The notes beneath the pieces were generated by a model. It saw nothing but the letters and a program-made list of their open reading frames with translations, had not been told where the DNA came from and made no database searches. Below are positions 5,933 through 54,372 of a stretch of DNA of 64,000 nt, piece by piece. Position 1 is the first letter of the stretch. Each line of letters opens with the position of its first letter. This DNA comes from Antedon mediterranea (Eukaryota > Echinodermata > Crinoidea > Comatulida > Antedonidae): the NCBI RefSeq assembly GCF_964355755.1, contig NC_092670.1, positions 37,807,795 to 37,871,794 on the forward strand. The letters run 5' to 3'. Made by a program: the position numbers and the translations under genes.

Positions 5933-5935
5933 AAT

Positions 5936-7043: not shown

Positions 7044-7121
7044 ATAATTAACCTTTATGGGATGGGCTAGGTGTGGTGCGCACGGTTGTTGCTTTCGTTC
7101 CCGTTCCAGTAGTTTTATCTC

Positions 7122-13313: not shown

Positions 13314-13469
13314 ATGAAGTGGTTTGTTTTGCAAACTTACCTGATTTTATCAGCTGGACTCGCTTGTTTCGGAAGCAGTTGGCAAAGAAAATTACACGAG
13401 CGAAATGTCCATCATGCCGAGGCACCCGTAGCTGAATCGTCGATAGCTGATCAACGAATACAAGAGGAC
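13314..13469 (+). CDS. Exon 1: signal peptide and linker (residues 1-52)
   Basis: MKWFVLQTYLILSAGLACFG has a short basic N-region, a hydrophobic core and small residues near position 17-21, so it is a convincing signal peptide. A polar linker follows (WQRKLHERN...). The donor is GAC|GTAAGT in phase 0. This ATG is the first after the TATA box, and the exon is conserved in gene 2 at 58828-58983. Confidence 0.85.
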
Positions 13470-13897: not shown

Positions 13898-13928
<31 letters not shown>

Positions 13929-16900
13929 TAGAAGTATATATATATATAAATGTTCGGTTCAATGTAACCGTCTAGAAAGTGCTCAATACGGTAAAGTAGA
14001 GCTAAAATATACGTTGAGTCTGGAAAAGAAGTAAAAACTACAGTTTGGTCTCTACAGGCTTGTTTCGTGAGTCGTGCAACTCACTCATCAGGAGACTATA
14101 TATATATATATATATAGAAGTATTGGCGAGAAAAAAACCAATATAGGCCTAAACAATATTAAGTAAACGAAATATTTATAACAAACTATTTCTACTTTCC
14201 CCTTACTCCTCCCTCCCACCATATATTTTCATATTTATGTTTCAAGGTAATTCATCCGTGAATATTACAAACAAATGATTTTGTTAAATTTGATTTACGC
14301 TAATCAATATTATCACATGCACGCTTCAATATTTAGAAGAAACCAGAACAAAACATTGCTTTTGCAAAATTCTGCTGCTAATAATGCATCATAGCAAAGA
14401 ACTTATAACACAAGAATCTCCTGTTCGTCCGAAGCGCGTAACAATTTCGAAAGGCATTGTGGGATAGAATAGAGCTATGGGTGGCGCCATTGTGAGCCAT
14501 GGAGTAGGGCGCCCGCATCAAATTAGAAAGTCAAAATCATAGAGGGGTTCTGCTAATGCTCTAGGGGGTATAGAGTAATTGACTGAGGAGTAGGGCGCCC
14601 GCATCAAATTAGAAAGTCAAAATCATAGAGGGGATCTGCTAATACTCTAGGAGGGGTAGAGTAATTGACTTCCTAGTTTGGAGAGGAGGGGGAGCTGCTC
14701 GCGTGTTTTTTTTTCCAGGACGAACGTGGGCAGAAGTCATGAATAATTCATTACCTTAATTATTTTTATTATAAAGAATTGAAAGATAGCTGATCTACTT
14801 CCTTAATATACTAAACCTAACCCTCTAAATAATCTCTCTCAACTATTAAAAAAAACATGTTCATGAAAGACCTCGAACCGAGGGCTTCAGCGTAATAGGT
14901 TAAAGCCTTTACCACTAGACCAAACATTTCGGTTGGCAAACGTTGTTTACACTAATTATTTAATCTCTCTGCATTCTTATACAGCGCCCTCTATAATGTT
15001 CCCTATTATGTCATAATTATTATATAATATATAAATATTTACCGCCCACCATATTATCTACTAACATTATTTTACCATTTATCTAATTCAATAATATATT
15101 TTATTTTTATTTTTTATTTTTTATTTTTTTTTTTTTTTTTATTTTTTTTTTTTTTTTTTTTTTTTCTTCAAAATTATATAATGTAACCTAAATCTAAATA
15201 AAATAAATAAATAATACAGTACTAAAAATAAGACTAAATAGTATAATAAAAATTGTATCACATTTAATTAAATTACAAATATAACTATTAATATTAAATA
15301 TAATAAGAACAAATAATCATATAAAAGTTGCATTTATTTTAATAATAACAGTATAATAAATCAATTAGCAATTATATATATATATATATATATATATTTT
15401 TTTAGTAATAATAATGATAATATATTCGCTTAAAACTTGAAAATATTAATAATACTGATAATAAATAGATAATAACATTAACTCCATCATATAGGTTAAG
15501 TATTGTTCGATATGTAAGATTACCTTGTTTTTACTAATTTCATTTTACTTGTATAATTCGCTTCTTAGTTAAGACTTAAATGTTATTTTTTGATACTTTT
15601 CTTTTTGTTTTTACATTGCCTTGTAAATGAACGCACCGTCTTATAAACGTGTGCCGCTGATACAAAAGCGTTCGTTCAATAAATTTATCCTAAATTTATC
15701 CTAATTAATCATGAATTATTCATGATTTCTGCCCACGTTCGTCCTGGAAAAAAAAATTACGCGAGCTGCTCCATGCTCTGTGAAATGGCGTCGCCCAGTT
15801 TGACCTTTTAACCCTGTACTTCCGATACTGTGTTTTGAATGCAAATTGAAGAACAGGAGATTCTTATGTGTTATAAGTTCTTTGATCATAGTTATAATAA
15901 TCATTCCGGTTGGGCAAAAAATACTGATTCCAAGTGTCTGATGCTTTTTTAGAAACAATTGGAAGAAACGTATAGAGACTTATTGCATCTGCTGGGGGAA
16001 ACTGGACATAAGTTTGGTGAGTTATTTAGCCTTGTCTACACTATCAAACTTTATGTGACGAATGTTATGTGCTCATAATGGACATGATGATGTCATATCA
16101 CTACCGTATTTGGGAATATCACTGCCATATTTGGGCACATCACGCTTTTTAATTAATTACGTCAGAGTAGGGCAAAACATCTGACCAATATTATTACTCA
16201 ACACCCTGACGCAAAGCTACCTCCACAGTAGTTACAAACAATGTACAAACTGTTGATGTAGTACCCGCTGCTTACTTGGGCTCGAAATATAACCCTTTGT
16301 CATCAGAGCAATCTTAGTATTACGTCAGAGTAGGGCAAAACATCTTACTAATAAGTCTAGTATTGTTTATATCGCTATACTTATTAATCAAAAATAAAAC
16401 TTACTGTAGCAATACTGTTGGTATGCGCGCTTTCCAAGATTGTTGAAATGTGTGAAACGCACGATGCTATGAAATTACGTCTAAAAGTCTGACCAACAGT
16501 CAGGCGCGTGTTTAGTTGCATACAGAGTATCGAATTTTAATCGATAAGTATGGACAAAAGAACATGATGAAAGCAAATATCCCAATATTCCCGATTGTCC
16601 CTCTGAAAACAAAATTAAAACCCGTTAAAATAATCAACCGGAGGCCATGGAAGAGAATGGATTAAATTAATGTAGGCCTCCTGTATATGTTGTAGGCCTA
16701 ATCTTTTTTGTTAATTTTAACATATTAAAAAACAGCAAAATTGTTTTAGGCCTAATAATGTGTAATTCTTTCACATTCGTTATTATCTATACTTTTTTCA
16801 ACTATAAGACAAGCAAATGAAGAAGGTGAGTATTTTTGTTATTATTTAATTTAAGATTTATTTTAGCAAATTTTTTTTAGCTCTATTTTCCCCAATTTTT

Positions 16901-19900
16901 TTTTACCTCAGCTCCAATCATGGTCTTGTTATATATATTTTTATTTCCTATTTTAAATTATAAGTGCCATTTTCGGACCATGATTTGCTAAGATCCTGGA
17001 GGCACTAATAAATATATTTTTATTTAATATTTGAAATTAAATGCCATTTCCGGCCATCGATCAGCTCTATTTTTCAAAATGTTCCCAATCATTGTGGGGC
17101 TGAGGTCTTGGATAGATTTTTATGCTATGATTTCCGAACATATTTCAGCAACTTAAATTCAAAATGTCCGTGGCTGTAGCAGGTTGGGCGTTGATGACTT
17201 TTGCCATTACCATTTTCGCACCCCAGATATTGGGAATTATATGACAGTTATTACACACAAAACTAAAAATATAAATTTTGAACGACTTTGGATACAATTT
17301 TAGGCCCTGTGTCAGTTTGGGTTTTACAGACGTTGTTTAGAAATGCAACCGTTGGTGGTGCTAATTAGGGCCACATTTTGGTTGGGGATTTGGCATAATT
17401 TGAGACAGGCTATGGCATAGTTTAAATTGTATCGCTGGCAACGCTGGTGGTGACACACAATACAATATACAACATATTCACACACCACCACCACGCGAGT
17501 TGATTAGGCCGCCTTGCCTATAGTAGTCTATACAAAATACACATTGAACAAAATATATTCCTTCTTGGTAGAGTTTAAAACATTACTCCTGATTAGTTTT
17601 TGTTTGTGCAAGTTACTATTTTAACATCGAATTATTTTAGATCGAATATAACACCTCTCACTTTGTGCTGTCGGGCCTAGCTACGCTCTAGATAATCAGA
17701 AACACGGCAAGCTGCCTCTCTGTACACAAAAAGAGGGAAAGCTCTGGAATCGAATGATAAAAAACAACGTCGTCGCACACGCGCGTGCCTCCACTTTCCC
17801 CGTCTATTTTTTTTGTTTTTTTTTTCTTGCGTACCGCCGTACCACACCACCGACGGATGACGTGTGGAGCGGAAGTTAAACGCCACCTATAAAATATGCA
17901 AGCTTTAATGAATCTGCATATAAATAATTTGCATAAATTATGTTTTGAATATTTGAACTAAAAACTAACGTGCAGAGCTAATTGTTTAAAACTATTATGT
18001 ATTTACAGTCGAATGGACTCGCTGGTTTAACCGAGACAATCCATCCGGTACTGGAGATTGGGAAACTGTGACCAGTTTGTACTACGTAAGTGAATTGTTT
18101 ATGTCTACTTTGTGATAATATACCAACTGGATCATAAATAATTGGAAATTATTTATCAAATAATGGTTGAAACACACCACACTGTCATAAAATATGTAAT
18201 TGTAAAAACAAGTTAAAAAAATAATACACATGATCACATGTCTTCTTACGCTGTTTATCTTAGGAGAATCCGAATCAAATGTGTCAGAATCCAGTTGACA
18301 TTCAATGCCAGACTATTGGTGGTTCATCTTACACTTCTACTGGAGAGGTTGTCAGTTGTAGCGCTAGTGTAGGTCTTGTTTGTAAGAATGCTGACCAAAC
18401 AGATGGTTACTGTCGGGATTACAGAGTTCGTTTCAAGTGTCCATGTTACTGTTAGTAGTTCTATAGCTTAACATAATACCAAACTATTTAAATTAGATAT
18501 TCTCTGTTAAACCTAAATTTAAAAAAAAAATCAAATTTCATCAAAAGAAAATTGCACAATTTTGTCAAATTTAGTAATTTTTTTCATTCCAGTTTCCGCA
18601 CTAATTTATTATAACCGACATAATTTATTATGCCTAATTTGTATGAACCTGAACTACAGTATTGTACAGTACGTACCGGTGATAAACCAGTACATTTCTG
18701 GGGCCGATATATTTGTTGTCGTGCAATAACAAAATTCATAAATTAGTGTCAGTCAGTTCAGATCCTTGCCATAATGCTAAAAAAGTGAATTCGATTAAAT
18801 TGATTGTTGATGGTGGGATTATAATATAGCTATATATACTATGTATTTACAGACGAATGGACTCCCTGGTTTGACCGAGACAATCCATCCGGTACTGGAG
18901 ATTGGGAAACTGTTACCAGTTTGTACTACGTAAGTGAATTGCTTATGTCTACTTTGTGATAATATACCAACTGGATCATAAATAATTGGAAATTATTTAT
19001 CAAATAATGGTTGAAACACACAACACTGTCAGAAAATATGTAATTGTAAAAACAAGTTAAAAAAATAATACACATGTCTTCTTACGTTTTTGATCTTAGG
19101 AGAATCCGAATCAAATGTGTCAGAATCCAGTTGACATTCAATGCCAAACTATTGGTGGTTCATCTTACACTTCTACTGGAGAGGTTGTCAGTTGTAGCGC
19201 TAGTCTAGGTCTTGTTTGTAAGAATGCTGACCAAACAGATTGGTCCTGTCTGGATTACAGAGTTCGTTTCAAGTGTCCATGTTAGTAGTTCTATAGCTTA
19301 ACATAATACCAAACTATTTAAATTGGATGTTCTCTGTTAAACCTAAATTTAAAAAAAAAATCAAATTTCATCAAAAGAAAATTGCACAATATGGTAGTGA
19401 TATGCCTAAATATGGTAGTGATATGACATCATCATGTCCATATATGCGCACATACAATATTTTTGCCCCATAAAGTTTGATAGTGTAGACAGAGCTTTAG
19501 TAGAGAGGAATTGTTACAATTGAATCCAGCATCCTGGTAAACAGGCTCAGTGGTAATAAAATGTTCGCAAACTAAAAAGAGTCTTGTTTGTTTTGTTATT
19601 TTTCAGGTAATCCATGTCAGCCAAACCCTTGCCTGAATAATGGAAAATGTGTTGATAGTCTTGGCAGTGCAGAGTGTGATTGTACCAATACAGGCTTTAC
19701 TGGAGTTACCTGCAGTGATGGTAAGGTCAACTGAGGTCAAGTGTAAAGTGTTGTTCCCACTTGGACCCAACACAATGGTGTAGATGCATTCTATTGTACA
19801 ATATTTCCTAATTTATAACACTAGTAAGGCCAAATTATTATCATTTTATTTTTAAAGGATTACATTTTTGTTTTGTCTTACAAAAAAACTGAACTGAGTA

Positions 19901-22900
19901 TTATGGCGCTATGAACTCTAAGAACATACCCGAGTCACATGTTTTTAGCCAGCATGGTTGATTTAATTGGAAGGTGCCGGACAGTGGCCAGTAAAATTAG
20001 TCAAAATTAACCCAAATTAAGTGCAGTCAGTAACAGTTATAAAACATTTTTTTTTTCAGAGGATCCATGTTTTAAAAATGATCCATGTGAAAATGGTGGT
20101 ATATGCAATTACGATACGGAATCAGATACCTCTATGTGTAACTGTACTGGTACACTTCATAGAGGTACCCTCTGTGAATTGAGTAAGTACAGTACTGTAT
20201 ATCCTGTGGTATAATCCCACTCCCATAGAATATGACTCATTGGGCTAACTTTGTGGGTGGGACTATACTTGGGGAACGCCAGATTCAGGAAAATAAAGTA
20301 AGATCTGAACTGGCTAGAGAGAGGCTTACATCCAGATCAAAAGTCAATGATGGGACTATACCCGGGGATATGCCTGTTTGTTTCTGTCCACAACCACAGG
20401 GGCTGAGTGAACCAGAACACTGGAGTAACCTCCTAATCTTCCGAAAGATATACTGGGTTTTTTTAGAGTGTACACGAGCCAGATGTGTACACTGGACCTC
20501 CAGTTTTAAATCCTTATCCTAAAAGACTTGTTCTACCATCAGAACAATGGTTGAGGAGTTCCGTGAACCTGTGCTGATTGTATAATGGTTTGCAGCACTT
20601 AACATCTCGGCCACTCGACTTGTGTTTGAAATTCTAATTTCATTTGATTTACAACATGTCTGAAGACATTGTGTAATTATACAAGGACATTAGTGCCCCA
20701 ATGGTTTATTATGATTTTATTCATACCTATTGTTTGGTTTGTTCAATAATTTTGTGTTTTATTGAAATGATTTACAACATATGCAGTCGGAAGACACTTA
20801 TACAATGAGATTAGTGCCCAAATGGTTTATTATTATTTTATACCCAATACCTTTTGTTTGGTTTGTTCATGTTGTCATCAAATTGAATAATTTTGTGTTT
20901 TTATTATTGAAATAATTGTTTTTTAATGACAATTTTAATAGAAATATGATTTAGTTTAATTTAAATACAATTTTGATATATGTACTGCATATTTCATTTA
21001 GAGGACGTATGTGCACAAAATAATCCGTGCAAAAATGACGCTCCTTGTCAAAACTCAGATTCAGAAAGCGTAACATGTGATTGTAGCAATGGAGGTGCTG
21101 AACCAACACACACCGGTGCATTTTGTGAAATATGTAAGTTTTTCTGAGATTACTACACAACATTTTTGTTTTACTACAGTTAGACCTTCATTAAGACGAC
21201 ACAACTGGGACCCAATAAAGTGTTTCTTTAATTGAGACATCCCCTAAAAGGGGTTGGCCATAGTGTTAAGTGGAACATAATAAGCAAAATCTAATCAAAA
21301 CAAATAGAATACATAGCGGGCAGTAGTTGGTTCAGACTAGTAAAGTTCAGTGTAGTCAATTTACTCACTGTCCTACAAACCTGCTATGATCTTAAGCTTT
21401 ATGTTACAAAAAATGTGATGTGCCCATCTATGGACATGATAATGTCATATCACTACCATGTTTGGGTATATCACTACTATATTTGGGCATTTTTGTTTGA
21501 TAGTATAGACAGAGCTTTATTGTGTCAAGGAGGGAGCGAACTTGTAGTGGTGTTTCACACAGCTCCTTTCAGTGATTGGTGTGAATACACCCTATATATA
21601 TTGACCCTCATTCACACTTGTTCCGTTTCACTCAAGACCGTACCATTTTGTTAAATAAGCTATTTTGTTGTTATCAGTTCCATGAAATTAAACAAGTATG
21701 AATGTGGTTTAAACTCTGTCCACACTATCAAACTAGTTTGACAAACAATTTTGATGTGCCCAAATATGGTAGCGATATGCACAAATATCCTAGTGATATG
21801 ACATCATCATGTCCATATATGGGCACATCACATTTTTTTTGTCACATAAAGTTTGATAGTGTAGACAGAGCTTTAGAAAAAAAAGCATAAAATCAACCTT
21901 TGCATTTGATCAATATGTTCCTCACTATAGAGTTCTGCGGTGTGACGTCACAACAATAGTTGGCACAGCGTGGTTGCTAGCGCAACCAAAATGTGTTCAA
22001 TGCTACTATGCTGATAACTATATAGATCTGTATTTCTATCAAATTATGTATATTAGCTTGATTCTTTTTAAATGATACTGTAGTTGAAGAATGAATAGAT
22101 TATTAAAAACAAATATTTAGTAACCTATTGAAATTTTAGTTTGTTTTTATTGAAAATTATTAAGTTTTAAAATTAATTCAATAAGCCTATTCCAAACCAT
22201 TGGTGACCTTGGAGTCACTTAGGCAGGTTGAATGTTTTGTAGCTACGAAACGGCGCCACGTACCGTTGTGACATCAGATGATATGATGATAAATTAACTT
22301 TATTTTCTTCATTCCTTAGTGCTTCTGTCGTGTGTTCCCAATCCTTGCCTGAACGGAGGAAGTTGTGTAGATGGCGTTTGCCAGTGTCCAGATGGAATTG
22401 AAGGATTTTTGTGCGAAACTCGTAAGACTTTTAAATGTTTCATTTCTTCATTTATTGAAAAAAAAATGTAAAAACAATTTTAGAATCCCATTCAACATTT
22501 ACTGGTTGGTTCATATATATATATATTTATATATGAAATATATACCATAAATTTTCTAATAGTAACCCACACTCTAAAGGAACCCCCCTTATAATAGTAA
22601 CCCACCTTATAAGTCAATCTATAATAATAACCCACTACTCTAATAGTAACCTATGGGAGTTACTATTAGAGTCACAAAAACTTATGATACAGCCATATTT
22701 TGAAAATAAGGAGATAATGCATGTTGATCTCAGCAGTGGGCGAGGATTGAGTGTTTTTGAGTTTATAAAATAAAGATAGAGTTTAACCAAATTTGTTTAT
22801 TCGTACTGTTTTATTATTTTGCTATGAGTTGCTGACCGGAAAAGTTAGGGGTGGGTTACTATTTTCAGGTGCCTAATTTAAGATTAGTAATAGTAACCCA

Positions 22901-46900: not shown

Positions 46901-49900
46901 TGCAAATAGATTATTACATACCGCAATGAATTATAATTTTTTACTATGATGACATCTTTAAAATGTAAACAAATGATGCACTGTCAAACTATATACTTTT
47001 AACTTTAATATATGAACTTTGGAAGGAAGAAAGTTAATGTTAAGTTTGTTATTTTGGCCTAAGAAAATGTCATAATTTGTTTGATTGTCGAAATTATTTT
47101 TTTAAAATTTAATATGCAATTAATGATGACTTAATCAACTTTTGTTCTCTTAATTTGATAATAAATCATACATATGATACATACACTTGAAGAAAATGAA
47201 ATAAAAAATAGGTGTTTCCCTGCATTCTGACGATATATATTAATTTAAAAATTTAGCATATTTTCACCATTTTGTTAACTTATACGTGCGTAGCCAGTCA
47301 CTTTTGACGTGCTCGTATAACGCAATTTCGAGTTGAAACGTGAATCAAATATGATGATATTATTAAAGAAAGATTGTAAAACAGAAATCGGGCAAAAAGA
47401 ATGCGCATCAACGTTTAACGCGTAGTGCGCGTGCAAAAATCGGTGCGCACTCATGGCAATTTTTTAAACGCTTAAAATTGCCTGAAACGTACTCTAATTT
47501 CATCGAAAATAAATTTTGACAATTTTGAACATTTTAAGCGCGCGTACGCAAGCGTTATATGCGCTACGCACGTAATTGTATTGCCATATGATGAAATATG
47601 ACCTGAAATTTATGAGTACCAAATTTTATTTAATTGTGATTCATGCTTGTGAAGATATGATTACAAACGTGATTTCGTAAAATCGCGCGTAGACCGCGTA
47701 ATTTTTGATTGCGCATCGTGAAAATATAACCACATCGATTCCTGGCCATAAGGAATATACTCTGAAAACTTGACTTAGCTAGATGAAACGGATGCCAAGA
47801 TAATTCACGGACAAAATAGTGCTAAGGAATTAAGAATAAATAAATAAATAAATAAAGATTTTGACAGAATCAAGAGGTTATATGCATGATAATGCATATA
47901 ACCTAATTAGTTGGTTAAATATGATAGATTACTTTATTTGATTTCAAAGTACTGAAATGTTAATTAAATCTGGGACTTTTGACTTGGGCTTCATGGACTC
48001 TTTAGAAAACCCGGACTTTATGCCAAATAAATGAAATAATGTTCTTAAAATTATTCTTGCACAACCTAAAAGCTAGCCAGATGCTAGATTGGCAACACAA
48101 CTTGTGGAGGTCTGCAAATTCAGAAGAATTTACGTTCCACGTTCCTGACATCCAATCAATTACCTATTTTAGAATGCCTCATGGAATTTTGCAAAATAAA
48201 CAACTTCTAGTAATTATTATAATAAAATCTGAACTTTAAATATTATTTTAAGTTGGACTGTGTGTGTTTTCTTGATATTTTCTTCAAATCTCATAGGTTA
48301 TTTAATTGTAAAAGGTTTTTTTTTTTTTACTGTAGATTAGGTATATTTAAGGGTTAGGTTCAGTTTGACATTTGTCTATCATCTGACAAATTCACGATTA
48401 AAAATTGTCTCCACTGCTAACACACATTATCTAATAAAATAAGATTTTAGTTTATATTTTTCTTATTAGCCAATCAAACTAATAAACTATTTTCTTTTCT
48501 TTACAGAATGTGATGATGAATTATCTAATATTGTTGGACTTTCAATAACTAGAACAACATCAGATAATTCTAATCCTAACAGCACGGAAATAGACAGCAG
48601 AGACATATGGTATCCGAATATTACTGTACAGCCCAAACCATATGTAGATGTTACATTTGATAACACGGTATCCATAACATCCTTAACCATTCAGGGAGAT
48701 GAAGGAAATTCTGTTACCAAACTTAAACTGTATCATAAAGAATCAGAAAGTGAAAGTTACATTATCATGAATAATGACTTTCAGATTCCAAACCAAACTA
48801 ATAATTCCCTTGTAGTAAAAATTCTTCTTCCTGAAGAACTTTCAGTTGTTGTCGCTCTAAGAGTGGAAATTGATTCTTATAATGTCGACAATCCAACAGT
48901 AAGATTTGGAATTTTTGGATGTCTGCCTGAAAGAACAACTACTATTGTTATACCATCTATTGCAACAGGTACCCCGTCAACACCAAGTACAATTGCAACA
49001 GGTACCACGACAACAACAAGTACAATTGCAACAGGTACCCCGTCAACACCAAGTTCAATTGCAACAGGTACTCCATCAACACCAAGTACAACTGCAACCG
49101 GTACCCCATCAACACCAACATCAACTCAAAAACACTCAATCTTCCCCCACTCCCGAGATCAACATGCATTATCTCCTTATTTTCAAAATACGGCTGTATC
49201 ATGTCTTCATAATGTCATTTTGTCAATAATTTTTGTGACTCTAATATTAACCCCCATGGGTTACTATTAGTGTAGTCGGTTATTAGATTGACTTATAAGG
49301 TGGGTTACTATTAGAAGCGGGGTTACTATTAGAGTGAGGGTTATTATTAGAAGATTTACGGTACTGTACTCTAATTGTAATTGTAGGAGGGATGTAATCT
49401 TTTTTAAGAATGAAAACAAGAAAAAAAGGAAACAAAACCAAAACATCTATTGAGAACATTTTTAAATTATTTTGCTATCCCAATAGATTCTCAAATCACA
49501 TCTCAAAAGTAAAACAAATTATCTTCCAAATGACCATCAATAGGACTTGTTCATGCTGTTGTTTCTTGAAGTAATGAAATAATTCCCCACAAAATTTAAA
49601 CAAATTATGTATTGCAAAATAACACATGATACATAATACATACTGTACACATGTTGCAATGATAATATTCATGTAGTATAATAACATAACAATATATTTT
49701 TTGTGAAACTTTCACTTTTAATGACTTATTGTAATTTACAAGAGGACCAGTAAAATTACATTACTCCACTGCTTTAACTGGCCACAGAATATGGGCCAAT
49801 AGGGAGGCCTTCAACAACCAAAATAACTTTTTAAAAAAAAATGAGGTACAAAAAATCAATCTTTATTATATTAATATTTTGTAAAAGAATTTGTGAAGAG

Positions 49901-52900
49901 GTAAATTGGGTAAAATTATTGATATTTTATCATATTTTTCTGAAATTTTAACTGGCCAAGCAGACTTGTTATTTTACTATTTAACTGATCCATCATGCAT
50001 TTAACTTGCCATTGGCCGGCGGACACAAACGCTGCAAGTAATGACATTACAATTAGCCAATACAGTTGGGAGAGACAATAATACAATTCTGTTTTTATCT
50101 AGAGTGCAACAAAGACTTGGACGTCGTTGGACAAGGAACTAGGGTAACGTCCGACTTTTCAAATCCAGAAAACACAAAGTTATACAGTGAGGGCTGGATC
50201 CCAAACTATATTCCAGAACAACCTAGACCGTATGTTGAATTCTATTTCAACTGCACTGTAGAGGTGTTTGTTATTGGTATCCAGGGAGTAGATAACATGT
50301 ATGTTACCGAGCTAAAATTGTACTATAAAACAGTGGACTCTGACACTATAGTAGAGTGGAATCAATTAATAGAGGTATCTGGGCAAGATAACCATTCAGT
50401 TGTGACTATCATTCAACTGCCGCACGATTTTCCAGATGTCGTGTATCTAAAAGCTGAAATCATTAAGTTTCATATTCAGCCTGCTTTACGAATTGCTTTC
50501 TATGGATGTGTGGTCAAAGCTACGACGACCCAAGCACCTCAAACTACAACTAGAATTACTACTTCTGCTGAAATTACAACCGTACTAGTAACTGAACCTC
50601 CTACCACTTTGCAAACCACTAGATTGACGACGATCGAAGGTATTTCATTTTCATTTATCGATCCCTTCCGTGATGGGTGGATCTGGGCAGTGTAGTGCTA
50701 ACAATTATAATATTTATAGTCTGGCCAAAATAATATAAGTATACTAATAATGACAATTTGCATAGAGCCAGTATCCTCCACCCGAATAGAGCTCAGGGCT
50801 TTTTTAACTTTTAAAAACATCAGCATATAGTGATACTGTATTTTCCTTTGTAATGTCTTATATGAAATAATAATAAAAAATAGTGATATTTCAGATTCAT
50901 CTTAAATGGATCATTTAACTGTTGCTGGTAAGCTATAGCCATACACTTGCAGACCTGCAACATAGAATTATCTCAGACCCCACTGGCCCTACGCTCTTGA
51001 AACAGGTTCTGTGACAATGATCGTAGGCTTCTACGAGTAGTTTATAATGCAGTACACAATCTCATTGTAGCTGCTAAAAGGGAGATCACGCAAACCTGGT
51101 TTGGCCCTTGTATGACATTTACAATTTTAACACTATTAAATATTGTATATAGAGAAGCATCTGTTAACAATTGACCATATTACTCAACACTTCTATTCAA
51201 TAATTTCTTTAACAAAATAAATTATGCATATCTTTTGTGGTTTGATACAAAATTGTAGTATTTAGTAGAAATTAAGAACAGAACATTAGCTTGCTCAGCA
51301 TTTGCATTGTTCATAAATTACTGAAAAAAATCTATTGGATACCTCTTCTAATATAAAATATCCCCCAAACTTATTTTTTTTTTTTTTTGTGTCTTATACC
51401 CTTTTCACATAAATGCATAAATTTGTACAACTTGTTACAACTTGTAACAAGGTTTGATCTCCTGATTTATTACACGTTTTCATACATGCATATGCGAAGC
51501 CTGAGAAATCTTGGTAGAAAGCCTAGTTGCATGTTATTTAATTACTACGATAGGTCAGTTTAATACCAGGGCAATACACGCGGAACATCTCAGAACAAAA
51601 ACACGCTTCTCATCAATGTGTCTCGGGAGATTTTCATAAAATAGTACTTACACTATGCAAACCTAGTTACAACTTGTTACAAGTAGTTACAATTTGCAGA
51701 TGTGAAAAGGGTATAACAGTTATATATGATTTGTGAATTGCACTAAAGCATTGATTGATGTAATGGTTATATATCCAGCCTTTCACAGTAGATATCCTTG
51801 GTTTAATTCCTGCTTAGGATCTTTATTTTTTCATCATCATTATTTTTTAAAATATTTAATCATTATCATTTTTTTTTTAATTAATAATATTAATATTTTT
51901 TTTACTATGAACCTAAGTTCAACAAATGGATACTTACCTGTAATAAGTAAAATAATATAAAAAGTGGTCCAGAATTGGGATCCCGGTCCAGATTGCCTCA
52001 AAATTTAATGAAGTAGTCTGTGACCACATATCTGTGTTTTCAATTTAATGTTAAAGATCTGGCGATCCTGCAACTACCAAACACATAGGCGCAATCGACG
52101 ACATAACCTCCTCCTTGTGCGGAGGTAAAAAAATACATATAAAATTAGTTGGTTAAATATGATAGATTACTTTATTTGATTTCAAAGTACTGAAATGTTA
52201 ATTAAATCTGGGACTTTTGACTTGGGCTTCATGGACTCTTTAGAAAACCCGGACTTTATGCCAAATAAATGAAATAATGTTCTTAAAATTATTCTTGCAC
52301 AACCTAAAAAGAGCTAGCCAGATGCTAGATTGGCAACACAACTTGTGGAGGTCTGCAAATTCAGAAGAATTTACGTTCCAGACATCCAATCAATTATCTA
52401 TTTTAGAATGCCTCATGGAATTTTGCAAAATAAACAACTTCTAGTAATTATTATAATAAAATCTGAACTTTAAATATTATTTTAAATTGGACTGTGTTTG
52501 TTTTCTTGATATTTTCTTCAACTCTCATAGGTTATTTAATTGTAAAAGGTTTTTTTTTACTGTAGATTAGGTATATTTAAGGGTTATGTTCAGTTTGACA
52601 TTTGTCTATCATCTGACAAATTCAGGATTAAAAATTGTCTCCACTGCTAACACACCTTATCTAATAAAATAAGATTTTAGTTTATATTTTTCTTATCTAC
52701 AGAAAATACAGCCACTTGTAGCCAATCACACTAATAAACTATTTTCTTTTCTTTACAGAATGTGATGATGAATTATCTAATATTGTTGGACTTTCAATAA
52801 CTAGAACAACATCAGATAATTCTAATCCTAACAGCACGGAAATAGACAGCAGAGACATATGGTATCCGAATATTACTGTACAGCCCAAACCATATGTAGA

Positions 52901-54372
52901 TGTTACATTTGATAACACGGTATCCATAACATCCTTAACCATTCAGGGAGATGAAGGAAATTCTGTTACCAAACTTAAACTGTATCATAAAGAATCAGAA
53001 AGTGAAAGTTACATTATCATGAATAATGACTTTCAGATTCCAAACCAAACTAATAATTCCCTTGTAGTAAAAATTCTTCTTCCTGAAGAACTTTCAGTTG
53101 TTGTCGCTCTAAGAGTGGAAATTGATTCTTATAATGTCGACAATCCAACAGTAAGATTTGGAATTTTTGGATGTCTGCCTGAAAGAACAACTACTATTGT
53201 TATACCATCTATTGCAACAGGTACCCCGTCAACACCAAGTACAATTGCAACAGGTACCCCGACAACAACAACTACAATTGCAACAGGTACCCCTTCAACA
53301 CCAAGTTCAATTGCAACAGGTACTCCATCAACATCAAGTACAATTGCAACAGGTACTCCATCAACACCAAGTACAATTGCAACAAGTTTTACCGAAATTA
53401 AAAAATTAACCCAAGTCCAATCCACAACCGTACTACCAACATTTCCAGCACCTACAAGAGGTACCCCGTCAACACCAATTACAGCTGCAACAGGTACCCC
53501 GTCAACACCAAGTTCAATTGCAACAGGTACCCCATCAACACCAAGTACAATTGCAACAGGTACCCCATCAACACCAAGTTTAATTGCAACAGGTACCCGA
53601 TCAACACCAAGTACAATTGCAACAGGTACTCCATCAACACCAAGTACAGCTACAATAGGTACCCCGATAACACCAAGTACATTTGCAACATTTTCACCAC
53701 CAACTGCATTGCCGGCAACTACCAAACCTAAAGGTAATATTTTCTTCTCAATAAATTTTAAAAAGAAATTGGTGTAGTCACAAAAATAATGATAGGCCTT
53801 TACAATAACAATGGTTTGTTTAATTTGCAGATTATTGTAAAATTGCTGTTGCTTAATGGAAATAAAAATAAGTTAATACACAATTTTCTACAAAAACATG
53901 AACTCTACTCCAAAATACTTTGTTTATGTATAGAATCGTTTGTATCTTTGCCCTGGGAACAGTGTTGCCACCTTTATAATGTCTATTATTGGCAATTCAT
54001 AATTTGAGAATAAGAAAAAAAAATGTAACAAATACTTCTCGCTCTACCTTTTGATTTCTAGGAACTTGTGAACAAAAGCAGGCAGTCAAAACGTTTAGTA
54101 CAGTATATAATAATAAAACCTGCACAACAGGCTTTCAAATTGATTACTGTGATGGAATGTGCGCTTCAACCACTACTCACCATGTAGAAATACGAACACA
54201 GACTATTTCTTATGATACCAAATGTGGTTGCTGTAGGCCTGAGGCACCAGTGTCTGTAACTAGAATGATAACGTTTATCTGTGGTGGTGAAGAAAATGTT
54301 GAACTAGAAATTACTTTAGACACCTTTGATCGTTGTACCTGTACGGAATACCTGCCCTGCCCTCCAGTATAA
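13314..54372 (+). CDS. Giant secreted mucin/VWF/hemolectin-like glycoprotein (35-exon model)
   Basis: Exons: 13314-13469, 15953-16016, 18009-18085, 18264-18450, 18853-18929, 19100-19280, 19607-19720, 20060-20182, 21002-21133, 22320-22421, 23725-23766, 24524-25036, 25793-25893, 26664-26823, 27205-27439, 28393-28439, 29085-29407, 30008-30152, 30860-31024, 31861-32031, 32594-32831, 33106-33396, 33722-33768, 34678-34860, 35408-35607, 36012-36116, 36912-37197, 38021-38257, 40442-40981, 42748-43209, 44396-44932, 48507-48968, 50103-50639, 52759-53733, 54062-54372. Splice phases match at every junction, and most domain borders are phase 1. The product is about 2,841 residues, with D1-D2-D'-D3 and C-terminal cystine-knot organisation as in VWF, gel-forming mucins and insect hemolectin. 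In those families the knot makes dimers and D3 makes multimers. No furin-type RxxR site is evident between D2 and D'. Mucus, clotting or adhesive roles are all possible. The ends of exons 42748 and 48507 are the least certain; no cDNA supports the model. Confidence 0.85.
14048..14096 (-). ncRNA. Hammerhead ribozyme motif (type I, very short stem III)
   Basis: On the minus strand, 49 nt contain every hammerhead element. Stem I strands are GTCTC and GAGAC, followed by the core CTGATGA. Stem II is GTGAG/CTCAC with a TTGCACGA-type loop. Then come GAA, a 3-bp stem III ACA/TGT with loop AGCC, and A at the cleavage position after GU. Short-stem-III type I hammerheads are known from Penelope-like retroelements and retrozymes. 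It sits in intron 1 between two AT microsatellites. Activity is inferred from the motif. Confidence 0.8.
14395..15884. mobile_element. Non-autonomous hAT-like element in intron 1
   Basis: It starts CAAAGAACTTATAACACAAG and ends with the inverted equivalent, TIRs of about 32 bp. It is flanked by 7-bp direct repeats ATCATAG (14388-14394 and 15885-15891). The corresponding intron of gene 2 (near 59800) lacks it. No transposase is visible; the middle is AT-rich with long T runs (15110-15165). A partial relative lies at about 55488-55600. The hAT label rests on terminus and target-site style. Confidence 0.75.
14868..14935 (-). repeat. tRNA-like (SINE-type) sequence
   Basis: On the minus strand TTTGGTCTAGTGGTAAAGG resembles a pol III A box, and GGTTCGAGGTC about 35 nt on resembles a B box. 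The acceptor stem is not convincing, so this is a tRNA-derived relic inside the hAT-like element, not a tRNA gene. Confidence 0.5.
15953..16016 (+). CDS. Exon 2: linker (residues 53-73)
   Basis: The exon encodes KQLEETYRDLLHLLGETGHK and one more residue, a charged, possibly helical segment. The acceptor is CTTTTTTAG and the donor TTTG|GTGAGT, leaving phase 1. Gene 2 has the matching exon at 59872-59935. No domain is recognised. Confidence 0.75.
16029..16150. mobile_element. Palindromic MITE, right-truncated
   Basis: The left arm cttgtctacactatcaaact and the internal gacatgatgatgtcatatcac dyad are present; the right arm is missing. It lies just after exon 2. Gene 2 has a shorter remnant at the same place (59946-60013), so the insertion is older than the gene duplication. 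Confidence 0.75.
16802..16825 (+). pseudogene. Disabled 24-nt microexon 3
   Basis: Gene 2 has a 24-nt phase 1-1 exon here (60700-60723) with acceptor CCAG and donor GTGAGT. In gene 1 the aligned acceptor reads TCAA, with AG changed to AA at 16800-16801, while the GTGAGT donor remains. The next AG at 16807-16808 would give a 17-nt exon and shift the frame. Skipping it joins exon 2 to exon 18009 in frame, so I leave it out of the gene 1 model. Confidence 0.7.
16855..17450. repeat. Dispersed repeat block related to 2130-2930
   Basis: The ccatttccggccatcg, ggaccatg...gctaagatcctggaggc and ggcaacgctg blocks match the repeat family at 2130-2930 in the same general order. This is intronic and has no coding content. 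Confidence 0.6.
18009..18450 (+). CDS. WxxW (CysD) domain 1, exons 18009-18085 and 18264-18450
   Basis: The translation begins VEWTRWFNRDNPSGTGDWE, the hallmark of the mucin WxxW/CysD domain (also in CILP), and continues with a Cys-rich second half (residues about 74-161). WTRW is a possible C-mannosylation site. In vertebrate mucins CysD domains cross-link the gel non-covalently. The donor used is TACT|GTTAGT, phase 1; without splicing, an in-frame TAG follows. The exon pair and its intron are almost identical to the next pair, indicating a recent tandem duplication. Confidence 0.85.
18853..19280 (+). CDS. WxxW (CysD) domain 2, exons 18853-18929 and 19100-19280
   Basis: It begins EWTPWFDRDNPSGTGDWE and matches domain 1 almost throughout (residues about 162-247). 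The tail is shorter than in domain 1, ending KCP with donor CAT|GTTAGT, phase 1, so the next exon supplies the completing Cys. The intron is also nearly identical to that of domain 1. This domain pair is not found in gene 2. Confidence 0.85.
19388..19499. mobile_element. Palindromic MITE, left-truncated
   Basis: The right arm AGTTTGATAGTGTAGACAGA and internal blocks are present; the left arm is replaced. The equivalent element precedes the EGF exon of gene 2 (63067-63225). Confidence 0.75.
19607..22421 (+). CDS. Four EGF-like domains (exons 19607, 20060, 21002, 22320)
   Basis: Each EGF is one phase 1-1 exon: 19607-19720 (CQPNPCLNNGKCVDSLG...), 20060-20182 (CFKNDPCENGGIC...), 21002-21133 (CAQNNPCKNDAPC...) and 22320-22421 (CVPNPCLNGGSCVDGVCQC). 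All have the six-Cys EGF pattern at residues about 248-405. The usual calcium-binding N-terminal DxxE/D motif is not clear. The symmetric phases make these exons easy to shuffle, and the first one is also duplicated in gene 2. Confidence 0.88.
20290..20625 (-). repeat. tRNA-derived SINE
   Basis: On the minus strand the head reads TGGCCGAGATGTTAAGTG (A box) and GGTTCACGGAACTCC (B box), then a body with GTGTACACATCTGGCTCGTG. The body matches SINEs at 37652-37975 and 57695-57990. The 96-codon frame here is SINE sequence, not a gene. Confidence 0.75.
21391..21519. mobile_element. Palindromic MITE
   Basis: Shortened left arm, gatgtgccc core and right arm ending TAGACAGAGCTTTA. Confidence 0.75.
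21711..21876. mobile_element. Palindromic MITE, near full length
   Basis: About 166 bp, from AAACTCTGTCCACACTATC to GTGTAGACAGAGCTTTAG, with inverted termini and internal dyads. Confidence 0.85.
22530..23000. mobile_element. TIR element with TAATAGTAACCCAC repeats
   Basis: The left end accataaattttctaatag and the right end attagaagatttacggtat are inverted. Both ends carry multiple TAATAGTAACCCAC-type subterminal motifs. Fragments of this family lie at 38279-38489 and, importantly, inside the Thr/Pro exons at 43364 and 49123. Confidence 0.75.
23105..23400 (-). mobile_element. Penelope-like terminal fragment with hammerhead-like motif
   Basis: A block with tctcaatggagatacaaaaa...aaacagccagaaaagtt occurs twice (about 23131-23203 and 23277-23350). 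The second is followed on the minus strand by CTGACGA, a GGGC/GCCC stem, GAAA and AGC/GCT, a hammerhead-like order. An extra A before stem II and a weak stem I make it degenerate. Confidence 0.45.
23725..23766 (+). CDS. Pro-rich linker exon with GC donor (residues 405-419)
   Basis: The 42-nt phase 1-1 exon encodes NSGYRPEPSLPPS. The only frame-compatible donor is AGTG|GCAAGT at 23766/23767, a GC-AG intron. The nearby GT at 23771 would end the exon in phase 2 and put the VWD exon out of frame with early stops. Because it is symmetric it can also be skipped cleanly, so it may be an alternative cassette. Confidence 0.65.
23871..23994. mobile_element. Palindromic MITE, internally shortened
   Basis: TAAGCTCTGTCTACACTATC to GTGTAGACAGAGCTTTA; the central part is shortened with cacacatacacatc sequence. 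Confidence 0.8.
24006..24169. mobile_element. Palindromic MITE, full length
   Basis: About 164 bp with inverted arms, 12 bp from the previous copy. Confidence 0.85.
24524..25036 (+). CDS. VWD domain of D1 (residues 419-590)
   Basis: One exon encodes GDFCTVWDKQNYRTFDGFVY through GMCGNYDG to NWNVESA. The FDG motif at the start, the central Val/Ile-rich strands and the CGNYDG...ND calcium loop near the end define a von Willebrand type D domain. The usual CGLC redox-like motif is NGMC here, lacking the first Cys. Entry and exit are both phase 1. Confidence 0.9.
25793..26823 (+). CDS. C8 domain of D1 (exons 25793-25893, 26664-26823)
   Basis: The Cys pattern C...C...MCLKLKEVFSDCLE / YYLEACYESIC-C...CICSDFAAYALE...LC is the C8 module that follows VWD (residues about 590-677). 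The internal intron is phase 0, as in the other D units. Confidence 0.85.
26228..26520 (-). repeat. tRNA-derived SINE
   Basis: On the minus strand GGGCGCGTGGCACAGTGTG contains an A box and GGTTTGAATCC is a B box about 40 nt later; the body extends to about 26228. It lies in a C8 intron. The 86-codon minus-strand frame here is part of the SINE. Confidence 0.7.
26976..27142. mobile_element. Palindromic MITE, full length
   Basis: TTAAAGCTCTTTTTACACTA to GTGTAGACAGAGCC with internal dyads; it ends about 60 bp before the TIL exon. Confidence 0.85.
27205..28439 (+). CDS. TIL domain of D1 (exons 27205-27439, 28393-28439)
   Basis: PFDCDSLVEEYSPCESTCGG...C through GCKCKSG...GVCVPSSDCPC is a trypsin-inhibitor-like Cys-rich domain (residues about 677-771). 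It is followed by the short ECKECTCRSGSFDCIDQLCG extension usual before the next VWD. The internal intron is phase 2, and the same split is seen in the D2 and D' TIL domains. Confidence 0.87.
27520..27975 (-). mobile_element. Possible solo LTR in intron
   Basis: A unique block begins TGTCACGAACTC and ends near GGTCATGCA. On the minus strand it has a TATATAAAGG TATA-like box (about 27733-27742) upstream of an ATTAAA signal (about 27620), the same organisation as the gypsy LTR at 7876-8164. I found no target duplication or second copy. Confidence 0.35.
28023..28183. mobile_element. Palindromic MITE, full length
   Basis: AAAGCTCTGTCTACATTATC to GTGTAGACAGAGCTTA; more diverged inside than other copies. 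Confidence 0.8.
28455..28640. repeat. GATTATTATTATTTT microsatellite
   Basis: An imperfect (ATT)n/(GATTATTATT)n tract starts about 15 bp after the exon ending at 28439. The long minus-strand Ile/Lys frame is a product of the repeat. Confidence 0.9.
28694..28852. mobile_element. Palindromic MITE
   Basis: TTAAAGCTCTGTCTACACTA to AGTTTGATAGTGTAGACA; the right terminus has decayed. Confidence 0.8.
29085..30152 (+). CDS. VWD domain of D2 (exons 29085-29407, 30008-30152)
   Basis: It runs from ATCWASGIWSYKTFDNKHYEF through TLLQNTHC-type strands to GKTCGLCGTYNNNKADDF (residues about 771-927). This is the only D unit in the protein with a complete CGLC motif, the vicinal-Cys sequence linked in VWF and mucins to disulfide exchange during multimer assembly. 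The N/D-rich loop after it matches the VWD calcium site. The internal intron is phase 0. Confidence 0.9.
29474..29590. mobile_element. Palindromic MITE, shortened
   Basis: TTAAGCTCTGTCTACACTAT to GTGTGGACAGAGCTTTA, with the centre deleted. A second copy follows 20 bp later. Confidence 0.8.
29610..29746. mobile_element. Palindromic MITE
   Basis: TAAAGCTCTATATACGCAAT to GTGTAGACAGAGCTA; second of a close pair. Confidence 0.8.
30860..32031 (+). CDS. C8 domain of D2 (exons 30860-31024, 31861-32031)
   Basis: The exons encode GNVEENISEFVSKTKVVAGC... and ECFKYLESRPYYDSCLQDVC...CNMMSQYVSDCAKKG...NNC, a C8 module with its pre-C8 linker (residues about 927-1039). The junction is phase 1. The intron between them carries the 32-bp minisatellite and a SINE. 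Confidence 0.85.
31045..31597. repeat. About 32-bp minisatellite, roughly 17 copies, in a C8 intron
   Basis: Units of the type TGATATCATGCCATAATGCC plus CATATTTGGTAA repeat head to tail with substitutions. The array starts about 20 bp after the donor at 31024. Copies touch directly with no spacers. Confidence 0.9.
31690..31835 (-). repeat. tRNA-derived SINE close to a splice acceptor
   Basis: On the minus strand GGGGAGCTGTACCTTGGTGG begins a tRNA-like head with GGGTTCAATCC as B box. The element ends about 25 bp before the exon starting at 31861, so it includes or abuts the branch-point region. Confidence 0.65.
32003..32290 (-). pseudogene. Non-LTR retrotransposon (LINE) C-terminal fragment
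   Basis: The minus-strand frame reads RRLTFAGHCPRNKEDIITD, then W...HG...GRPALACIDVLETDTG. This FAGH...GRP...D..D pattern is the C-terminal tail common downstream of reverse transcriptase in animal LINEs. Only this tail is present. It starts at the splice donor of the exon ending at 32031. Confidence 0.7.
32594..32831 (+). CDS. TIL domain of D2 (residues 1039-1118)
   Basis: NNTCPEGLVYRVCADSCDLFC...C...GCVCPDGQVFDHYGNCVVKEDCYC is a canonical TIL domain, followed by the LADGRYYPKDHELTVDCGV linker. The exon ends in phase 2, like the D1 TIL exon. No RxxR processing site is seen after it. Confidence 0.87.
33106..33768 (+). CDS. D' TIL domain (exons 33106-33396, 33722-33768)
   Basis: The exon first finishes the D2 extension (CICSNGEFICSQQQDC), then encodes a second consecutive TIL domain, CSENAVYTLCYGGNNCRKTC...CKCQEGYVYDE...CVQPTECPC (residues about 1118-1231). 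Two TILs in a row between D2 and D3 is the D' feature of VWF and gel-forming mucins. The short exon CTCNEGIWKCVEMKCD leads into VWD3. Confidence 0.87.
33918..34530. mobile_element. Intronic TIR repeat (CCTCCGCCAAGGAGG type)
   Basis: The left end has TACCTCCGCCAAGGAGGTAT and the right end GGCGGAGGTATGCACTCTCG, roughly inverted. Related segments are at 41930-42140 (and its two copies) and 57180-57360. Confidence 0.55.
34678..36116 (+). CDS. VWD domain of D3 (exons 34678-34860, 35408-35607, 36012-36116)
   Basis: GTCITWGDGHYKTFDGRWFNF starts the domain and LTGLCGYYDGVVGNDF ends it (residues about 1231-1393). The calcium-loop Asp/Asn residues are present, but the first Cys of CGLC is replaced (TGLC). 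Introns are phase 1 and phase 0. In VWF and mucins D3 makes the inter-dimer disulfides; whether that holds here cannot be read from sequence alone. Confidence 0.88.
34870..35175. repeat. 27-bp minisatellite, about 11 copies, abutting a splice donor
   Basis: Units of TACATTCACACTGAGCCAAT plus ATTAAGC repeat head to tail. The array begins within about 10 bp of the donor of the exon ending at 34860. The minus-strand Cys/Leu-rich frame is an artefact of the repeat. Confidence 0.9.
36912..37197 (+). CDS. C8 domain of D3 (residues 1394-1489)
   Basis: ALTACPSAVEPSDACQKYP...KCKILYEDLFSPCHSRVP...[30 protein letters not shown]...FC is a complete C8 module in one exon, where D1 and D2 use two. Entry is phase 0 and exit phase 1. 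The KYPKRK segment is dibasic but lies before the C8 core. Confidence 0.87.
37652..37975 (+). repeat. tRNA-derived SINE just before an exon
   Basis: The head GAATGGCTGAGGGGCGCC (A box) and GGTTCAAGACAC (B box) are followed by a body with GTGTACACATCTGGCTCGCG shared with 20290-20625 and 57695-57990. It ends about 45 bp before the exon at 38021. Confidence 0.75.
38021..38257 (+). CDS. D3 Cys-rich (TIL-like) tail and Thr/Pro stretch (residues 1489-1568)
   Basis: PMQCDEGCEHYSPCVEMCYE...DGCC...GLCSTKPVC is a partial TIL-like Cys cluster closing D3. It runs into TTAATTTRPTITPITITTPI, a candidate O-glycosylated hinge before the discoidin-like modules. Phase 1 in and out. Confidence 0.8.
38279..38489. 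mobile_element. Fragment of the TAATAGTAACCCAC element
   Basis: It starts at ACCGTAAATCTTCTAATTGT just after the donor at 38257 and reads inward as at 22530-23000. The element at 38490-39930 interrupts it; its remaining flank (AATAAACAAATTTG) resumes at about 39931. Confidence 0.7.
38490..39930 (-). mobile_element. Helentron-like element 1 (non-autonomous)
   Basis: On the minus strand the 5' end carries AGGTGATCATTT followed by its inverted copy. The 3' end has the inverted copy again, then a hairpin ATTCGTCA...TGACGAAT and CTAG(T). Compared with the uninterrupted flank near 22800, it inserted between two T residues without target duplication. These are Helentron/Helitron2 features. No Rep/helicase is encoded. 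It is related in layout to 46427-47904. Confidence 0.65.
40442..40981 (+). CDS. Discoidin (F5/8C)-like module A1 plus Thr-rich tail (residues 1568-1748)
   Basis: ECNKDLDVVGQGTRITSDFS opens the module and LRIAFYGC closes it, with PYVEFYFNCTVEVFVIGIQG and YVTELKLYYKTVD between. These match strand and end motifs of coagulation factor 5/8 C (discoidin) domains, though the fold assignment is from pattern only. A Thr/Pro tail (TTTQAPQTTT...) follows. A1 has one extra Leu and a few substitutions relative to A2 and A3. Discoidin domains often bind glycans or membranes and also occur in hemolectin. Confidence 0.8.
41408..41726. mobile_element. MITE with CCCTTTTCACATCTGC termini (copy in unit 1)
   Basis: Inverted termini of about 45 bp (ACCCTTTTCACATCTGCATA and the complement of TTTGCAGATGTGAAAAGGGT) are flanked by TA. 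Copies at about 45688-46006 and 51390-51715 were carried along by the exon-array duplication. Confidence 0.75.
41755..41830 (+). repeat. tRNA-like SINE relic (also in units 2 and 3)
   Basis: TGATGTAATGGTTATATATC resembles an A box region and GGTTTAATTCC a B box with one mismatch. The same sequence is at about 46025-46100 and 51740-51815 by duplication. Confidence 0.4.
42748..43209 (+). CDS. Discoidin-like module B1 (residues 1748-1902), 3' end uncertain
   Basis: ECDDELSNIVGLSITRTTSD through ALRVEIDSYN to VRFGIFGC is a second, diverged F5/8C-like module. The frame continues past 43209 into 11-residue ATGTPSTPSTI-type repeats, then transposon-derived sequence and a stop at 43443. I end the exon at the first phase-1 donor-like CAG|GTACC (43209). 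Later copies of that site at 33-nt steps are equally frame-compatible. Read-through would give a short form without the cystine knot. Confidence 0.65.
43210..43445 (+). other. Thr/Pro/Ser repeat coding tract interrupted by a transposon fragment (unit 1)
   Basis: About five 33-nt units remain in frame with module B1 up to about 43363. From there the sequence matches the transposon family of 22530-23000, giving QKHSIFPHSRDQHALSPYF and a TAA at 43443-43445. In unit 3 the corresponding tract is uninterrupted and much longer. Confidence 0.7.
43364..43613. mobile_element. Transposon fragment inside the Thr/Pro exon, unit 1
   Basis: It starts near AACTCAAAAACACTCAATC and ends at AGAAGATTTACGGTA, and is the inverted right half of the TAATAGTAACCCAC element (compare 22660-22760). 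The same fragment at the same codon is in unit 2 but not unit 3. Confidence 0.8.
44396..44932 (+). CDS. Discoidin-like module A2 (residues 1902-2081)
   Basis: The same module as A1 with V for I after GTR, I for M in NYIPEQ, one Leu fewer, R for K in the Thr tail and T for M near the end. Its protein sequence is identical to A3. Flanking introns are duplicated too. Phase 1 in and out, so modules can be added without breaking the frame. Confidence 0.8.
46427..47904 (-). mobile_element. Helentron-like element 2 (non-autonomous), only in unit 2
   Basis: Units 1 and 3 give the exact empty site. On the minus strand the 5' end is AGGTTATATGCAT plus its inverted copy, the 3' subterminal region repeats it inverted, and a hairpin ATTCGTCA...TGACGAAT and CTAG(T) follow. 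Insertion was between two T residues without target duplication. A decayed relative is at 61637-62797. A weak tRNA-like stretch lies inside at about 46775-46860. No protein is encoded. Confidence 0.75.
48507..48968 (+). CDS. Discoidin-like module B2 (residues 2081-2235), 3' end uncertain
   Basis: Identical to B1 in this part except Q for H in NNDFQIPNQ, as in B3. The frame again continues through ATGTPSTP repeats into transposon sequence, with a stop at about 49268. The first phase-1 CAG|GTACC donor-like site is at 48968. The same alternatives exist as for B1. Confidence 0.65.
49123..49363. mobile_element. Transposon fragment inside the Thr/Pro exon, unit 2
   Basis: Same fragment and insertion point as 43364-43613, with a short deletion after GGCTGTATCAT that changes the read-through tail and its stop position. 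Confidence 0.8.
49590..53215 (+). repeat. Tandem array unit 3 (exons A3-B3)
   Basis: The 5' part, through A3 and the first part of the intron, follows unit 2. The 3' part differs from units 1 and 2 by an 8-bp deletion near 52378 and an extra CTACAGAAAATACAGCCACT stretch near 52697, and lacks the transposon fragment. Confidence 0.85.
50103..50639 (+). CDS. Discoidin-like module A3 (residues 2235-2414)
   Basis: The translation is identical to A2, from ECNKDLDVVG to LTTIE, with the same acceptor (TTTTTATCTAG) and GTATTT donor. Such identity, including intron sequence, means very recent duplication or gene conversion. Confidence 0.8.
52759..53733 (+). CDS. Discoidin-like module B3 and long Thr/Pro/Ser tract (residues 2414-2739)
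   Basis: Module B3 ends at VRFGIFGC. Then follow about 13 imperfect 11-residue repeats (ATGTPSTPSTI type), broken once by a unique segment FTEIKKLTQVQ...FPAPTR at about 53385-53460. This is a mucin-like PTS tract expected to be O-glycosylated. The donor is AAAG|GTAATA at 53733, phase 1, joining the cystine-knot exon. The opposite strand also stays open here because of the repeat; that frame is an artefact. Confidence 0.85.
54062..54372 (+). CDS. C-terminal cystine knot (CTCK), last exon (residues 2739-2841)
   Basis: GTCEQKQAVKTFSTVYNNKTC...DYCDGMC...KCGCCRPEA...ITFIC...FDRCTCTEYLPC shows the Cys spacing of a CT cystine knot, with 11 Cys. The frame ends at TAA 54370-54372. In VWF and mucins this domain forms the tail-to-tail dimer in the ER. 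Confidence 0.9.

Follow-up and report, generated by a model that had tools for sequence, protein, structure and literature searches.

The window analysed here is a stretch of 64,000 nucleotides from Antedon mediterranea (C1:37807795-37871794, where C1 is NC_092670.1). The genome searched amounts to 354 Mb in 11 chromosome-sized contigs. Two of its tektin exons match 8SNB, the doublet microtubule of sea-urchin sperm, at 290 and 238 bits (156 and 147 for the next best tektins), which points to an echinoderm or a near relative. Neuropeptide patterns were uninformative on lineage: an echinoderm-type motif had no match and FMRF had two scattered ones. The window holds a gene, gene 1, and the start of its tandem paralogue, gene 2 (Table 1). 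Gene 1 is known from DNA alone, and its model was spliced by hand from splice sites and phase. Under this predicted splicing the frame is unbroken from the ATG at 13314 to the stop at 54372 through 31 phase-consistent exons, which are 28 front exons plus A1, B3 and CTCK. The protein would have about 2,176 aa, in the predicted order SP-CysD2-EGF4-D1-D2-D'D3-discoidin A/B-PTS-CTCK. The initial annotation drew a 35-exon frame across the same interval. Its ATG, its stop and the continuity of 31 exons stand, and the figure of 35 results when the duplicates B1, A2, B2 and A3 are added. The frame is also open with three A exons and B3 (~2,533 residues), and with B1 and B2 included via weak internal donors (~2,910-2,930 residues).

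Ty3/gypsy-like retroelement remnants lie on the minus strand at 4876-7541 of the window, with integrase H2C2/rve and reverse-transcriptase-like ORFs. Many introns of genes 1 and 2 contain a short interspersed repeat whose ends resemble AAAGCTCTGTCTACACTATCAAACT and which is probably a MITE (repeats of this type at window 16033-16150, 19368-19498, 21430-21873, 23880-24170, 27014-27144, 28053-28183 and 28748-28820). Within the introns of gene 1 there are also minisatellites of 32 bp (30993-31509) and 27 bp (34816-35226).

Table 1. Features of genes 1 and 2 in window coordinates
Feature	Position	Strand	Evidence or relation
Exon 1: start codon, signal peptide MKWFVLQTYLILSAGLAC, TATA-like box ~50 bp upstream	13314-13469	+	Conserved in exon 1 of gene 2 (58828-58983), as is the promoter-like stretch there
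Exon 2: short segment KQLEETYRDLLHLLGETGHKF, phase 0 to 1	15953-16016	+	Conserved in gene 2 (59872-59935), splice sites kept
CysD/WxxW 1: exons 18009-18085, 18264-18450, phases 1-0-1	18009-18450	+	PF13330; intron position as in the genome's other two-exon CysDs
CysD/WxxW 2: exons 18853-18929, 19100-19280	18853-19280	+	PF13330; 94% DNA copy of CysD 1
Four EGF-like exons: 19607-19720, 20060-20182, 21002-21133, 22320-22421, all phase 1-1	19607-22421	+	PF00008; conserved in gene 2
Linker exon (exon 11), GC-AG intron donor AGTG/GCAAGT	23725-23766	+	Identical GC donor kept in gene 2
D1 (VWD-C8-TIL-E): exons 24524-25036, 25793-25893, 26664-26823, 27205-27439, 28393-28439	24524-28439	+	PF00094, PF08742, PF01826; GMCG replaces CGLCG
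D2: exons 29085-29407, 30008-30152, 30860-31024, 31861-32031, 32594-32831	29085-32831	+	PF00094 (109.6 bits), C8, TIL; CGLCG present; E2 runs on into exon 33106
D'D3: exons 33106-33396, 33722-33768, 34678-34860, 35408-35607, 36012-36116, 36912-37197, 38021-38257	33106-38257	+	Pfam, alignment; D3 has GGDC and the TIL-3 cysteine
A1: discoidin (F5/8C-type) exon and PTS linker	40442-40981	+	AlphaFold, Foldseek
B1: discoidin exon and PTS, stop 43445, no B3-type donor	42748-43445	+	DNA comparison, splice sites
A2: discoidin exon, coding sequence identical to A3	44396-44932	+	DNA comparison
B2: discoidin exon and PTS, stop 49270, no B3-type donor	48507-49270	+	DNA comparison, splice sites
A3: discoidin exon	50103-50639	+	DNA comparison
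B3: discoidin and PTS repeats (ATGTPSTPSTI-type 11-mers), donor AAAG/GTAATA	52759-53733	+	PF00754 (22.3 bits); splice sites
CTCK-like cystine knot exon and stop codon	54062-54372	+	Cysteine pattern common to mucin CTCK at C1:38590669; weak VWF/Norrin matches
Gene 2 start: exon 1 58828-58983, exon 2 59872-59935, EGF exon 63290-63403	58828-64000	+	Homology to gene 1; runs on to ~C1:37903.7 kb
Dispersed repeat in gene 2 at the site of the gene 1 CysD pair	61636-62771	+	~50 scored copies across chromosomes, 82-86% identical

The initial annotation described a VWF/mucin-type backbone that has discoidin-like units and, ahead of D1, both CysD and EGF. Pfam, colinearity with MUC2 and the model of unit A all agree with this description. 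The Pfam scan of the gene 1 segments recovers CysD twice (PF13330, 157.6 bits), VWD-C8-TIL three times and EGF above the cut-off in three stretches; a fourth EGF was called by eye. Unit A and the CTCK exon have no Pfam match, and unit B is below the cut-off (PF00754 F5/8C, 22.3 bits against 28.2). The D1-D2-D'D3 region is colinear with MUC2 over query positions 196-1092 (433 bits, positions 210-1125 of the solved chain), and it also aligns to MUC5AC, MUC5B and VWF. D3 is identical at the positions aligned to MUC2 R1043, W1046, G1085, G1086, D1087, C1088, C1130 and H1133 (chain numbering +20). In MUC2, C1088 and C1130 make the interchain disulfides and the other residues belong to a conserved interface (PMC6739602). 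The gene 1 motifs aligned at these two cysteines are GGDCECMC and EGCEHYSPC. Some features count against a mucin-type reading. CGLCG is intact only in D2, since D1 (GMCG) and D3 (GLCG) are without its first cysteine, and the B3 PTS is short at ~170 aa (50-74% P/T/S).

The C-terminal exon has to be identified in another way, and AlphaFold models it with low confidence (pLDDT 58.7). It is homologous to the last exon of one of the ordinary mucins (C1:38590669; 31%, E 1e-8), and the cysteines align. A three-sequence CTCK profile has weak matches in the PDB, mostly to cystine-knot proteins, and activin/BMP, the VWF CTCK and Norrin are among the best (E 0.0025-0.05). TALE matches of the mucin CTCK were discarded as sums of many sub-significant repeats. 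We take the last exon as a putative CTCK, with reservation, from its cysteine pattern and the weak cystine-knot matches.

Gene 2 begins with a TATA-like start region similar to that of gene 1. It is predicted to encode five EGFs (the first is duplicated), the same D assemblies, one A, one B and a CTCK, with no CysD. Its exons map one to one onto those of gene 1 with splice sites kept, except that gene 2 has one more EGF and no CysD exons. The exons of gene 1 are independently supported because they are matched in this way. The shared part of the two genes has dN 0.045 and dS 0.124 (dN/dS ~0.36), which indicates purifying selection. The B exon of gene 2 (C1:37892740-37903060) is a 3,444-residue ORF in which a discoidin unit is followed by ~3,300 residues of 11-residue TTATGTPSTPS repeats, a motif matched 260 times in this PTS exon.

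With A and B as queries, a third member of the family, gene 3, was found (C1:30.92-30.99 Mb, minus strand). It has at least 12 full discoidin units and two partial ones. Long PTS lies between these units, with PTS-rich ORFs up to 967 aa. Gene 3 also has D1-D2-D'D3 with GGDC in D3, and an EGF ~0.7 kb before D1; there is no CysD in the 24 kb upstream. Since gene 3 has both, discoidin modules through the PTS and EGF before D1 are a family trait. The combination of domains in gene 1 had been considered unusual and perhaps lineage-specific. It does not stand alone, because three genes share the EGF before D1 and the mixture of discoidin and PTS, but of the three only gene 1 has the CysD pair.

The AlphaFold model of unit A, built from 16 relatives (pLDDT 89.5), has a discoidin fold. 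Foldseek matches this model to discoidin domains, among them neuropilin b1 and factor VIII C2, with probability 1.00 (best E 1.5e-8). Units A and B are 38-39% identical, and every discoidin exon of gene 1 has a PTS linker. At the DNA level there are three A and three B exons, and along most of its length the unit is 97-100% identical, introns too. Where coding sequence was compared, A2 and A3 have zero differences, and so have B2 and B3. The array thus arose by a tandem duplication that is young, and a duplication in the assembly is also possible; its use in protein is a prediction.

How much of gene 1 is one protein can be asked at both ends. We see a real chance, somewhat short of even, that the array (and perhaps the CysD doublet too) is a recent duplication, in tandem or in the assembly, of which only a part is spliced in, so that the protein contains only A1(-A2-A3)-B3. 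The near identity of the units through their introns fits this, as do the identical pairs A2/A3 and B2/B3. The acceptors of all A and B exons are intact. B1 and B2, on the other hand, depart from B3 within the PTS repeats and reach their stops without the phase-1 donor CTAAAG/GTAATA of B3, and skipping them also keeps the frame. Splicing from B1 to A2 would require a weak phase-1 CAACAG/GTAC donor in the PTS repeats. Such donors are present in B1 and B2, and this is an argument for the longer protein. The unit lengths differ (3,954 and 5,707 bp), so the array is not a simple repeated copy, and this too counts against the reading with partial splicing. The initial annotation wrote SP-WxxW2-EGF4-D1-D2-D'-D3-(A-B)3-PTS-CTCK. 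The head, the D assemblies, the discoidin-like units and the PTS hold, but (A-B)3 in the protein is unproven because B1 and B2 have no normal donor and run into stops. At the other end, the stretch could be two or more separate genes, such as a CysD-EGF protein followed by a D-domain protein. CysD followed by EGF does occur elsewhere in this genome (loci L018 and L025). However, the frame and phases of gene 1 are continuous, gene 2 keeps the SP-EGF-D1 order behind its own promoter-like start, and EGF stands just before D1 in gene 3 too. We consider a split into separate genes very improbable.

The origin of the CysD pair can be considered next. There are at least 34 CysD matches in the genome. 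Two ordinary mucins (C1:14.84 Mb; C1:38.56 Mb) have single-exon CysDs behind their D assemblies. In gene 1 and eight other loci the CysD is split by an intron, nearly always at the same position and with phases 1-0-1 (C1:25.25 Mb left out). The two-exon CysDs elsewhere are on C3, C4, C6, C8 and at C1:25.25 Mb (L018-L025), and several adjoin EGF, HYR, kringle or SRCR exons. The closest relative of the gene 1 CysDs is a doublet at C7:30.445 Mb, with 77-83% protein identity and ~75% DNA identity including the intron. A CysD tree groups the gene 1 pair with this doublet (80/92), and most of its branches are weak. The doublet itself (C7:30445.1-30447.8 kb; L019, L064, L065) has few other coding signs nearby and is downstream of a tryptophanyl-tRNA-synthetase-like gene. 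The CysDs of the ordinary mucins are only 31-39% identical to those of gene 1. A move from the ordinary mucins was rejected, since both intron structure and identity differ. The gene 1 pair probably came from the CysD modules with two exons and phase 1-1 that form a shuffled pool across the genome. Such modules can enter a gene and leave its frame intact.

Homology between genes 1 and 2 ends at 18005, with the first CysD exon starting four bases further on, and restarts at 19388; in gene 2 the dispersed repeat lies in between. One might want to date the gain of CysD after the split of the two genes. This is not warranted because the dispersed repeat in gene 2 makes a loss there equally possible. 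A gain in gene 1 or a loss in gene 2 would both fit.

The nearest class can now be considered. MUC2, MUC5AC and MUC5B share with gene 1 the D1-D2-D'D3 assemblies, the interchain cysteines and interface residues of D3, PTS and a C-terminal cystine knot (putative in gene 1). Gene 1 differs from them in its CysD before D1, its EGF head and the discoidin among its PTS, and it had no VWD match beyond D3, while the Pfam scan of its segments found no D4 or VWC before the CTCK. Some gel-forming mucins have no CysD. The vertebrate mucins have CysD modules within the PTS, while the gene 1 family has discoidin modules there. In MUC2 the CysD1 docks onto the neighbouring bead and helps to fix the filament (PMC9169620). 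The placement of CysD after D3 in gel-forming mucins, which the initial annotation contrasted with its placement before D1 here, is seen in the same genome in the two ordinary mucins. These resemble gene 1 in their D assemblies and PTS, and the one at 38.59 Mb has a homologous CTCK, but besides their single-exon CysDs they differ in that no A/B-like discoidin units were detected in them. As a separate matter, C3:38095-38152 kb has at least 27 near-identical VWD units in tandem with a period of ~1.7 kb, which could be one giant gene of VWD repeats or a hotspot of copy-number change.

VWF has D1-D2-D'D3 like gene 1, and a CTCK, which is putative in gene 1. Unlike VWF, gene 1 has EGF, CysD, discoidin and PTS; the Pfam scan of its segments found no VWA (A) domains, D4 or VWC repeats, and no furin motif of a VWF-type propeptide was found in it. 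Insect hemolectin and hemocytin combine VWD-C8-TIL assemblies, F5/8C domains and a C-terminal knot, as gene 1 does if its putative CTCK is counted. The gene 1 family is set apart from them, by description, by its head of EGF and CysD and by the long PTS in the family. Sfp1 shares VWD/C8/TIL, EGF and discoidin with gene 1, and Nectin shares discoidin arrays. Gene 1 differs from both in having PTS and a putative CTCK, in having no GDPH self-cleavage site (motif check of the spliced protein) and in having no galactose-binding lectin domain found in the Pfam scan of its segments. An overlap with the footprint adhesive and hemolectin sets had been pointed out, and the shared VWD/C8/TIL and discoidin agree with it. 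The nearest class is nevertheless the gel-forming mucin rather than hemolectin or the sea star footprint protein, because the PTS of gene 2 exceeds 3,000 residues. We found no published protein with the domain order of gene 1, which is weak evidence, as the main mucin-evolution literature and the published echinoderm mucin architectures are outside this comparison. From the predicted proteins, the gene 1 family is best filed as an EGF-headed, discoidin-bearing branch of the gel-forming mucins, and not as a one-off.

We argue that gene 1 probably encodes a secreted polymer subunit of the gel-forming-mucin type, from an EGF-headed, discoidin-bearing branch, that polymerises and cross-links in the following way (probability about 0.7). 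Subunits would dimerise via the C-terminal cystine knot. By homology, D1-D2 would help to pack and align the chains. D3 would then join dimers into linear chains via two interchain cysteines of the MUC2 type; the residues are conserved and the bonding is predicted from them. The PTS stretches would be O-glycosylated. The discoidin modules between them, like discoidin lectins, may bind glycans, whether of the gel itself or of a surface, and so cross-link the gel. Binding of galactose and GlcNAc is known for discoidin proteins of echinoderms, Nectin among them (PMC7037938). Gene 1, with its short PTS and several discoidin copies, may be the cross-linking or sticky partner, and gene 2, with one discoidin pair, may be the bulk gel former. 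A bolder version can be offered tentatively, and we would not yet bet on it. It holds that this is a separate mucin branch in which discoidin modules that bind glycans take the place of CysD between the O-glycosylated stretches, the gel cross-links itself by lectin-sugar binding, and CysD is a swappable N-terminal cap that one tandem sister has and the other lacks.

Other functions have to be weighed against the polymer subunit of a mucus gel. Sea star footprint proteins of the Sfp1 type are composed of VWD, C8, TIL, EGF and discoidin (PMC9382459, PMC7037938), and sea urchin Nectin is an adhesive protein of six discoidins, so gene 1 could be a tube-foot or surface adhesive of this kind. The missing GDPH site and galactose-binding lectin domain speak against it, and the D1-D2-D'D3-PTS-CTCK order is mucin-like. 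We regard an Sfp1-type adhesive as unlikely. Hemolectin and hemocytin are clot proteins of insects, and hemocytin has several domains in common with VWF (PMC7023112). The VWD-C8-TIL and F5/8C set with a putative CTCK resembles hemolectin, and in a clotting protein from coelomocytes the D assemblies would polymerise while discoidin bound exposed wound surfaces. The long PTS of gene 2 and the PTS-rich gene 3 are a mucin feature, and they make a hemolectin-like clotting protein decidedly unlikely in our estimation. Since genes 2 and 3 carry PTS we favour a mucus role, as far as predicted proteins can indicate one; the adhesive and clotting roles that were first suggested beside it would be possible.

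Gene 1 may be a case of mucin polymers rebuilt by domain shuffling, with a conserved D1-D2-D'D3 core and interchangeable modules on either side. Its tandem sister differs in the CysD pair and in PTS length (~170 vs > 3,000 residues), which is a natural experiment on the roles of CysD and PTS. The gene family links mucins to the echinoderm adhesives, whose discoidin domains bind galactose and GlcNAc. With three genes, the family makes self-binding mucus gels of the lectin type testable.
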